A DNA stretch of 22,867 bases from a virus. The translations under genes were made by a program, and so were the position numbers. The stretch is from the IMG/VR virus record IMGVR_UViG_3300017726_000094, positions 1-22,867 of that record. One strand, given 5' to 3'. The notes beneath the pieces were generated by a model, which saw nothing but the letters and a program-made list of their open reading frames with translations, was not told the origin of the DNA and did no database searches. The stretch's first letter is position 1; the number at the start of each line of letters is the position of its first letter. Below, in pieces: positions 18,158-19,775 of the stretch.

Positions 18158-18332
18158 CGATTCGAACAACGAGATCATAAACACGACTCAAGCCGCTTCG
18201 ATTGCTGGCGTTTCATATCACAAATTTTTACGCGAGTTCGGAGAGATTCCGTATTCGATCGTCTATCCAGGCGGACCGCGAATTTATATGCGGAGCGAGG
18301 TCCGCGCTTTCATCGAGGGCAAGAACAAATGA
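18105..18332 (+). CDS. Second excisionase-like HTH protein
   Basis: This 75-aa protein has the pattern NTTQAASIAGVSYHKFLREF, then GGPRIYMRSEVRAFIEG, aligning with its upstream neighbour through GVSxxKFLRxF and RxY. It probably binds DNA as an excisionase or small regulator. The ATG at 18105 is chosen because CpG-rich backbone composition begins there; an in-frame ATG at 17985 would lie inside the upstream gene. It overlaps the next gene by 4 bases (ATGA), which ties it to the early operon rather than to the integration module. Confidence 0.65.
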   Translation: MEKVDAPLTAQTSKDLFSDSNNEIINTTQAASIAGVSYHKFLREFGEIPYSIVYPGGPRIYMRSEVRAFIEGKNK

Positions 18333-18778
18333 CTCTCGTTCCGCTTGATCTATCCGAAGCTAACGATTTTGTGCGTTCGTTTCATCGACATAATAAACCG
18401 ACTCAAGGCGGAAAATTCGCAATCGGTTTGTCAAGCGAATCGGGTTTGTGCGGAGTCGCAATTGTAGGTCGTCCGATTGCTCGTTTGTTAAGCGATGATT
18501 TCACCGCGGAAGTTTTGCGTTTGTGCGTCAATGACGATGCACCGCGCAACGCGTGTTCAAAACTTTATGCGGCGGCGTGGCGAGCTTGTAAAGCGATGGG
18601 ATACAAAAAACTCATTACCTATACGCTACAAAACGAAAGCGGTGATTCTTTGCGTGGTGCGGGTTTTAAGATTGTCGCAGAGTCGAAAAACACGGGAAAA
18701 GGTTGGACGAATCGACCTAATCGAAATTGGCAACCCGTTTATGGTCAATTGAAATTTCGTTGGGAGTTAAGCGCATGA
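18329..18778 (+). CDS. XF1762-family protein (GNAT-like)
   Basis: This 149-aa protein matches the XF1762 family common in phages: LSEANDFVRSFHRHNKPTQG, then GVAIVGRPIARLL, EVLRLCVNDDAPRNACSKLY, and LITYTLQNESGDSLRGAGFK. The pattern suggests an acetyltransferase-like fold, but the substrate is unknown. It is complete, and it overlaps both neighbours by 4 bases. It usually travels with phage DNA-metabolism genes, as here. Confidence 0.85.
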   Translation: MTLVPLDLSEANDFVRSFHRHNKPTQGGKFAIGLSSESGLCGVAIVGRPIARLLSDDFTAEVLRLCVNDDAPRNACSKLYAAAWRACKAMGYKKLITYTLQNESGDSLRGAGFKIVAESKNTGKGWTNRPNRNWQPVYGQLKFRWELSA

Positions 18779-18960
18779 GAGACGACGTCGCAAAACGATT
18801 CGAAACGTGGATCGATCCCGTCGGATGCGATACCAATTACAAGGGATCGCATCCCGACCTCGATATCTATCCGCGACCTGATCCCGACATCGCATGGAAA
18901 CGATTCTGCGAGCAATGGGAGAAGTGGTGCAAATTGCAACCGCTGACGTTAGGCAAATGA
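18775..18960 (+). CDS. Small hypothetical protein before the methyltransferase
   Basis: This 61-aa protein starts on an ATGA overlap with the XF1762-like gene. It is rich in Asp, Pro and Trp (RFETWIDPVG, DLDIYPRPDPDIAWKRF, EQWEKWCKLQP). I do not recognise a family. Its TGA is directly followed by an ATG in the same frame (18961), which opens the nested ORF described below. Readthrough or reinitiation would therefore link the two. The methyltransferase ATG (18957) overlaps its stop in another frame. Confidence 0.6.
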   Translation: MRDDVAKRFETWIDPVGCDTNYKGSHPDLDIYPRPDPDIAWKRFCEQWEKWCKLQPLTLGK

Positions 18961-19775
18961 ATGGAGCAACTCGAACTCATATCGATTTGTTCAGCGGAAT
19001 CGGCGGATTCGCCCTCGCGTGCCGATGGGCAGGAATCGAAACCATCGCATTCTGCGAAATCGAGCCATACGCCCAGCGAGTCCTCAGAAAAAACTTCCCA
19101 AGAATTCGGATATTCGAAGACGTTCGGCAATTTCCAGCAACTGAATTTCGCGAGCCTTTCCTACTTACCGGAGGCTACCCGTGCCAGCCTTTCAGCCAAG
19201 CCGGGAAGCGCCGAGGCGCGGAAGATGACCGCCACCTTTGGCCTTCGATGTTTGGAATTATCCGAACATCAAGGCCGACTTGGATACTCGCTGAAAATGT
19301 TGCTGGACACGTTACGTTGGGGCTCGACGAAGTGCTTGCTGACTTGGAAAGCGAAGGCTACGCCGTGCAACCGATTACTATTCCAGCTTGCGCCGTGGAC
19401 GCCCCGCACCGACGAGATCGAGTCTGGATTGTGGGCAACGCCAAGAAGCGGAGCGGCAATGAGCGGAGCCGCGGATGTAATGAAAACCGCGAATTACAAA
19501 TTTCCAAACTTGGAAACGCAAGTCGCGAGATCGCTTTTGCCGACTCTAATCGCAGACGATGCGAAAAACGTGAATCCGAAACAAAATCGCTTTCCGACTT
19601 TAACTTCAAAAGTGAAAGCGACGGAAGGTTCTGGAGCGCTGAACCCAACGTGGGTCGAGTGGCTCATGGGATACCCCGAAGGGTGGACCGATTGCGAGGA
19701 CTTGGAAACGCAATCGTACCGCAAGTCGCATACGAAATCATCAAAGCAATGATCGAAGCCGATGAAAGCGCATAA
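18957..19775 (+). CDS. DNA (cytosine-5) methyltransferase
   Basis: This 272-aa enzyme should methylate cytosine at a specific DNA sequence, perhaps protecting phage DNA from restriction. Motif I is HIDLFSGIGGF (8-18); motif IV is GGYPCQPFSQAG with catalytic Cys76; motif VI is ENV (113-115); motif VIII is RRDRVWIV (152-159); motif X is RLRGLGNAIVPQVA (245-258). The target recognition region (about 160-225) is unusually Ser, Arg, Glu and Asn rich. The ATG at 18957 is chosen because it gives a 4-base overlap with the upstream gene and places motif I near the N-terminus; 18894 would add 21 residues. No endonuclease partner is visible. The whole coding region also carries a second ORF in the +1 frame. 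Confidence 0.93.
   Translation: MNGATRTHIDLFSGIGGFALACRWAGIETIAFCEIEPYAQRVLRKNFPRIRIFEDVRQFPATEFREPFLLTGGYPCQPFSQAGKRRGAEDDRHLWPSMFGIIRTSRPTWILAENVAGHVTLGLDEVLADLESEGYAVQPITIPACAVDAPHRRDRVWIVGNAKKRSGNERSRGCNENRELQISKLGNASREIAFADSNRRRCEKRESETKSLSDFNFKSESDGRFWSAEPNVGRVAHGIPRRVDRLRGLGNAIVPQVAYEIIKAMIEADESA
18961..19752 (+). CDS. Nested +1-frame ORF inside the methyltransferase gene
   Basis: This 263-aa ORF lies entirely within the methyltransferase gene, starting 4 bases after its ATG. The N-terminal 75 residues are Ser-rich and likely disordered. Then come PGSAEARKMTATFGLRCLEL, MLLDTLRWGSTKCLLTWKAK, RLLFQLAPWTPRTDEIESGL, LLPTLIADDAK and ALNPTWVEWLMGYPEGWTD. I recognise this string of motifs from proteins recurrently annotated in phages as hypothetical or methyltransferase-associated. 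The function is unknown to me. A weak TTAGG (18949-18953) is 7 bases from this start but only 3 from the methyltransferase start. Translation is inferred from motif recognition, not from length, because long chance frames also occur in the terminase gene. Confidence 0.65.
   Translation: MEQLELISICSAESADSPSRADGQESKPSHSAKSSHTPSESSEKTSQEFGYSKTFGNFQQLNFASLSYLPEATRASLSAKPGSAEARKMTATFGLRCLELSEHQGRLGYSLKMLLDTLRWGSTKCLLTWKAKATPCNRLLFQLAPWTPRTDEIESGLWATPRSGAAMSGAADVMKTANYKFPNLETQVARSLLPTLIADDAKNVNPKQNRFPTLTSKVKATEGSGALNPTWVEWLMGYPEGWTDCEDLETQSYRKSHTKSSKQ

Follow-up and report, generated by a model that had tools for sequence, protein, structure and literature searches.

Overlapping reading frames of a phage locus very probably encode the two subunits of one C5-cytosine DNA methyltransferase

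The stretch of DNA analysed here (the window) is a 22,867-base IMG/VR virus record, on which portal, head, tape-measure, and tail genes are present. Two reading frames of this record, both open, have 792 bases in common. The first, alpha, encodes a C5-cytosine methyltransferase that matches PF00145 (E 1e-44, residues 8-206) and phrog_363 (E 2e-78, residues 7-270). The second, beta, encodes a nested protein that matches phrog_1008 (E 8e-28), a family named 'DNA methyltransferase' in PHROGs. The features of the locus are as follows.

18329-18778: Mom-like DNA-modification gene (phrog_1384, E 3e-34)
18775-18960: 61-codon ORF between the Mom-like gene and alpha, ending in the TGA at 18958-18960
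18894-19775, plus strand: full open extent of the alpha ORF; homology runs from the ATG at 18957, and a start at 18894 is possible
18957..19775, plus strand: alpha, C5-cytosine methyltransferase of 272 aa, with motifs I-VIII and X
18957..18964, plus strand: ATGAATGG, holding the alpha ATG (18957-18959), the TGA of the upstream ORF (18958-18960), and the beta ATG (18961-18963)
18961..19752, plus strand: beta, nested protein of 263 aa, phase +1 relative to alpha
18984..19007, plus strand: alpha motif I, DLFSGIGG, AdoMet binding, assigned by translation and by similarity to M.HhaI residues 14-169
19179..19196, plus strand: alpha catalytic motif IV, PCQPFS, assigned by translation and the M.HhaI alignment
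19201..19410, plus strand: beta N-core, PGSAEARKMTATFG...LLTWKAKATP..RLLFQLAPWTPRT, on the bases of alpha motifs IV-VIII, with both frames constrained
19407..19433, plus strand: alpha motif VIII, HRRDRVWIV, where the conserved catalytic block and the M.HhaI alignment stop
19434..19640, plus strand: region variable in alpha and constrained in beta (dN/dS among relatives ~1 in alpha vs ~0.3 in beta)
19639..19686, plus strand: motif-IX-like segment of beta, LNPTWVEWLMGYPEGW, labelled by position, spacing, and Pfam alignments
19698..19730, plus strand: alpha motif X, GLGNAIVPQVA, in frame 0

The catalytic block is present in alpha, with DLFSGIGG, PCQPFS, ENV, and HRRDRVWIV representing motifs I, IV, VI, and VIII. 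Motif IX was sought in alpha and found to be absent, a motif-IX-like element being detected in the beta frame only. Alpha does not have the layout of a monomeric enzyme, in which the recognition domain and motif IX are part of the catalytic chain. In beta, the stretch 19434..19640 contains WPTP-type repeats and is a candidate target-recognition segment, and the N-core consists of helices and a beta hairpin in a low-confidence AF2 model. Upstream, the stop of the Mom-like gene is overlapped by the start of the 61-codon ORF, and ATGA-type overlaps join these genes. This phage may encode two distinct DNA modifications.

An earlier note on this DNA had claimed nested dual coding here. The methyltransferase and nested strings that it quoted do sit on the same bases, and the shared opening of both frames over 792 bases is far from chance: when codons were shuffled synonymously with the methyltransferase protein held fixed, the 263-codon +1 frame had p = 0.0005. 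Of 115 non-redundant loci, 111 had a +1 frame longer than the null (p<0.05), and 4 had such a +2 frame. Pairwise similarity of the +1 proteins likewise exceeded the shuffled-gene expectation, with a median Z of 4.4 to 11.4 across identity bins, and the excess was present at every divergence level. Against a nested profile trained on other loci, real genes scored a median of 226 bits vs 70 bits for shuffles, and 100 out of 100 real genes outscored all of their own shuffles. As the shuffles keep 70 bits, alpha itself accounts for some of the +1 similarity, and weak +1 matches in distant methyltransferases were for this reason discounted as nested genes. Streptococcus phages and phiC2, which gave only weak +1 matches (E 1e-5 to 1e-8), were not counted. 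In the distant phage methyltransferases SPR, P74-26, HMGUkp1, and 12474III, no nested match was found.

Selection was measured with an OLGenie-like estimator, in which differences within 116 independent pairs are classed by their effect in both frames. Nested dN/dS was 0.24 at 95-99.5% identity and 0.37 at 88-95%, and increased to 0.76 among the most divergent pairs, the exact ratios being approximate owing to the simplified overlap estimator and to relatedness among pairs. Simulations with constraint on alpha only gave nested values of 0.98-1.12. Among close pairs, dN/dS in alpha and beta, respectively, was 0.16 and 0.60 in the N-extension, 0.15 and 0.40 over motifs IV-VIII, 0.96 and 0.30 in the variable region, and 0.34 and 0.31 in the IX/X region, and the regional pattern was similar in loci picked via the methyltransferase frame only. 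Purifying selection is found in both frames across the overlap, as in overlapping gene pairs. In the part that holds the recognition domain of monomeric C5 methyltransferases, it is beta that is conserved, and alpha drifts. The earlier note's proposal that constraint alternates between the frames is borne out by these regional values (~1 in alpha vs ~0.3 in beta over the variable region). What it had named as speaking against itself was not observed, since the +1 frame is open in nearly all loci, with a dN/dS well below 1.

Three scans relied on the alpha frame only, starting from mutually distant phages (the window, K1G, and Shelly), and one on the nested frame; two more used the nested alignment, against GTDB genomes and viral contigs. 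Alpha and beta occur together in ~240 loci retrieved solely via the methyltransferase frame, and both frames were found in phase +1 in essentially every scanned locus, the exceptions being contig ends and rearranged loci. The nested-selected scans yielded 137 new loci, all of them with an overlapping alpha and 136 scored as phase +1; no free-standing beta gene was found among them. The sole phase exception, L422, lies on a viral contig that has two methyltransferase/nested pairs arranged in tandem. Both frames were intact in 345 non-redundant loci, and alpha was broken with beta intact in 8; the 2 loci with alpha intact and beta scored as broken are Streptococcus controls, which are without a true nested gene. 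Assembly errors or prophage decay may explain some of the broken loci.

The strings of the nested protein that the earlier note had described as recurrent are indeed widely conserved, in 118 phage records and at least 592 IMG/VR stretches. The nested frame occurs, among others, in named phages of Paenibacillus, Lacticaseibacillus, E. coli, Klebsiella, Xanthomonas, Vibrio, Edwardsiella, and Mycobacterium. The titles of GTDB records with the pair cover Proteobacteria, Acidobacteria, Firmicutes, Bacteroidetes, Chlorobiota, Actinobacteria, Verrucomicrobia, Planctomycetes, Chloroflexi, Nitrospirae, and Synergistetes; these loci are presumably prophages, and many of the records are metagenome bins. 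In one Roseovarius chromosome assembly (OX638333.1), at least 5 copies of the nested pair (L367, L368, L369, L371, and L372) gave identical match statistics.

Sequence searches of beta against Pfam, NCBIfam, and the PDB returned no match. In an hhalign comparison with the C-terminal parts, in frame with the catalytic block, of the single-chain methyltransferases of five actinophages (VRedHorse, Yorick, PHappiness, Leonard, and PFR2), the beta profile matched at a probability of 97.7 and E 1.7e-12; the score was 80, and none of 60 column shuffles scored above 18. These single chains read motifs I-VIII, followed by LPTPxAxD repeats, a segment like FPEWMMGWPAGW, and motif X. The PF00145 match extends through the recognition region, reaching position 312 of 324 in PFR2 (L483) and position 294 in L323, a relative with swapped frames. 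In addition, the LNPx5LMGYP spacing in beta is that of LTPRECWRLQGFP in the canonical motif IX. Direct hhalign comparison of the beta profile with canonical (M.HhaI-like) methyltransferases was not significant, and the single-chain bridge to these canonical enzymes was marginal (E 0.04). By these alignments, the C-terminal half of beta is homologous to the recognition and motif IX region of single-chain methyltransferases, and for this reason beta is best read as a second enzyme subunit. The label of motif IX for its WVEWLMG-type segment is putative, based on position, spacing, and two Pfam alignments. Two AF2 models of beta had a mean pLDDT of 60-63, and a Foldseek search with the better one gave no significant fold match.

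Among relatives, the placement of motifs IX and X varies between the frames. Motif IX lies in the +1 frame and motif X in frame 0 at 331 loci, to which come 5 with a frame-0 stop and 33 where the motif X pattern was unmatched. Both motifs lie together in the +1 frame, with alpha ending after motif VIII, at 4 loci; at no locus of this clade were both found in frame 0. The layout of M.AquI, with IX and X in the small chain, is seen in L138, L265, L332, and L391. In L138, L265, L391, and Gordonia phage Gmala1, the +1 ORF holds the WVEWLMG-type segment and motif X, and alpha stops after motif VIII. In three contigs (L261, L323, and L324, of which the latter two are separate contigs), a mid-gene frameshift exchanges the C-terminal halves of alpha and beta, so that one chain carries motifs I-VIII and the beta C-terminus and the other the beta N-core and motif X, with all motifs still encoded. 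In actinophages such as Xena and Heather, the pair consists of two adjacent genes with a brief overlap.

Two-chain C5 methyltransferases form a known kind. The small chain of M.EcoHK31I, of which M.EaeI is a relative, is read from an alternative frame overlapping the gene for the large chain, and the nested +1 beta described here shares this trait. The large chain of M.EcoHK31I contains motifs I-VIII and X and its small chain motif IX; in M.AquI, the large chain contains motifs I-VIII and the small chain motifs IX-X (PMC3404938). Compared by motif layout, the window pair is like M.EcoHK31I (YGGCCR) in having motifs I-VIII and X in the large chain. It differs in two respects: M.EcoHK31I is part of a restriction-modification system, whereas the phage pair has no identified restriction gene next to it, and the predicted recognition domain of M.EcoHK31I is assigned to the large chain, whereas here this part of alpha is neutral and beta carries the constrained region. 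The two-chain M.AquI (CYCGRG) is like L391, L138, L265, Gmala1, Xena 75/74, and Heather 35/36, but its small chain includes motif X, which in the window sits in the large chain. VRedHorse gp68, Yorick gp69, PFR2 gp47, and Leonard gp5 have a C-terminal half homologous to the repeats and motif-IX-like segment of beta, and unlike in the window, all motifs of such single-chain actinophage methyltransferases lie in one frame and one chain. A plasmid search for an EcoHK31I-like system gave only hits titled 'DNA cytosine methyltransferase' or similar, with no recognisable EcoHK31I system.

Taken together, the locus very probably uses two frames of one stretch of bases to encode a single C5-cytosine DNA methyltransferase made of two subunits. 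The best reading of its sequence is an enzyme of the M.EcoHK31I kind, in which beta would have a start of its own. Alpha and beta would fold together, with alpha binding AdoMet and catalyzing the reaction, and beta contributing motif IX and recognition of the target. The assembled enzyme would methylate the DNA of the phage (or of the host). Protection from restriction, the usual role of phage methyltransferases, would be the simplest purpose.

Beta is probably translated independently, in most relatives via an internal ribosome-binding site ~57 codons into alpha. In 256 loci with an internal start, the first nested start is clustered at 160-190 bases into the alpha domain. A Shine-Dalgarno run of at least 4 bases precedes 135 of 204 first ATG/GTG nested starts, vs 113 of 935 start codons in other frames. 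In the clade of the window, the beta ATG follows four bases after the alpha ATG, and both starts are probably coupled to termination of the upstream ORF. This coupling is suggested by the position of both starts and the TGA at ATGAATGG, which is retained in the close relatives L008, L088, L089, L090, and L091.

A programmed ribosomal frameshift to +1 near motif VIII could instead join motifs I-VIII to the recognition region and motif IX in one chain, with no separate beta. Single-chain relatives exist, and L261, L323, and L324 carry exactly such a chain through a genomic frameshift. However, upstream of any useful shift point the +1 frame is already conserved, with a nested dN/dS of 0.40-0.44 over motifs IV-VIII in close pairs, and the 376 loci show 121 assorted heptamers with no single slippery one recurring, which together make a programmed frameshift less likely. 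Start codons preceded by Shine-Dalgarno sequences are also present in the +1 frame itself, and the joined product would be without motif X. We consider this explanation improbable.

A second alternative is that alpha is complete alone, with beta acting as an accessory or regulator or having an unrelated function, for example in counter-defence. The earlier note had guessed along these lines, naming a modulator of the methyltransferase or a counter-defence factor. Motif X is kept in alpha, the phage-borne pair adjoins a Mom-like gene, and the 8 non-redundant loci with a broken alpha and an intact beta could point to a separate use of beta. Against this, alpha is unconstrained at the expected recognition domain and without motif IX, beta is homologous to the very part that alpha is missing, and the 137 nested-selected loci held no beta without alpha. 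The PADLOC-DB defence models gave no match for beta and two relatives, and a match at the level of noise (E 0.02) for one relative. The alternative appears unlikely on these grounds, and the earlier guess has given way to the reading of beta as a second subunit, based on its homology to the recognition and motif IX half. That the +1 frame is an untranslated by-product of alpha conservation and codon bias is hardly credible, since the 70 bits retained by synonymous shuffles are outweighed by the open-length, similarity, and dN/dS tests, and since the beta C-terminus lies past the end of alpha or in the same chain in L138, L265, L391, and actinophages.

If the locus does encode a two-subunit methyltransferase, one frame is where its target specificity evolves, and the segment overlapping it in the other frame drifts freely. 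Alpha expressed without beta would then probably be inactive, and locating the likely site of specificity bears on predicting the resistance of phages to restriction. The pair is found in hundreds of bacterial viruses, common enough to serve as a model for the sharing of sequence by two proteins and for calibrating methods of overlap detection. To our knowledge, a two-frame arrangement of one enzyme has been described earlier for very few enzymes, and bacteria and their viruses offer few fully nested pairs for which selection on both frames has been demonstrated. We lean towards placing this pair, with its catalytic and recognition domains in two frames and motifs IX and X moving between them during evolution through nested two-chain, partly overlapping two-chain, half-swapped, and single-chain layouts, among the most widespread and longest-kept fully nested pairs. 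A search of the open-licence literature for nested or overlapping phage methyltransferases found no account of this gene, which may have been recognised earlier elsewhere; PMC8936443, PMC5567051, and PMC3025963 do not describe the nested gene. While the two-chain kind is already known, the prevalence, the constraint map, and the motif/frame series appear unreported in the open-licence literature searched.

Existing annotation usually misses or misnames one of the frames, and can now be corrected where databases give one frame only or name both 'DNA methyltransferase'. The 'g55 internal gene' of Paenibacillus phage Shelly and the 'putative Mte8-like protein' of E. coli phage K1G are equivalent nested ORFs in identical phase; the origin of the label 'Mte8' was not traced. 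In Mycobacterium phage Bipolar, the CDS annotated as 'DNA methyltransferase' (L328:1334-1885) is the nested +1 frame, and the real methyltransferase frame (1192-1902) is unannotated. Similarly, phrog_1008, phrog_31772, phrog_10223, and phrog_16528 are labelled 'DNA methyltransferase', yet match the +1-frame product.

Several individual loci carry stops in alpha. The catalytic PCQ motif is interrupted by a TGA in L262 (1753-1755) and by a TAA in L297 (1750-1752), with beta open in both. In these two loci, a two-codon insertion parts P from C at PCQ, for which decay, recoding, and the trace of an inserted element are candidate causes. L161, L357, L432, and L438 each contain one in-frame stop in or near the variable region of alpha, with beta intact.
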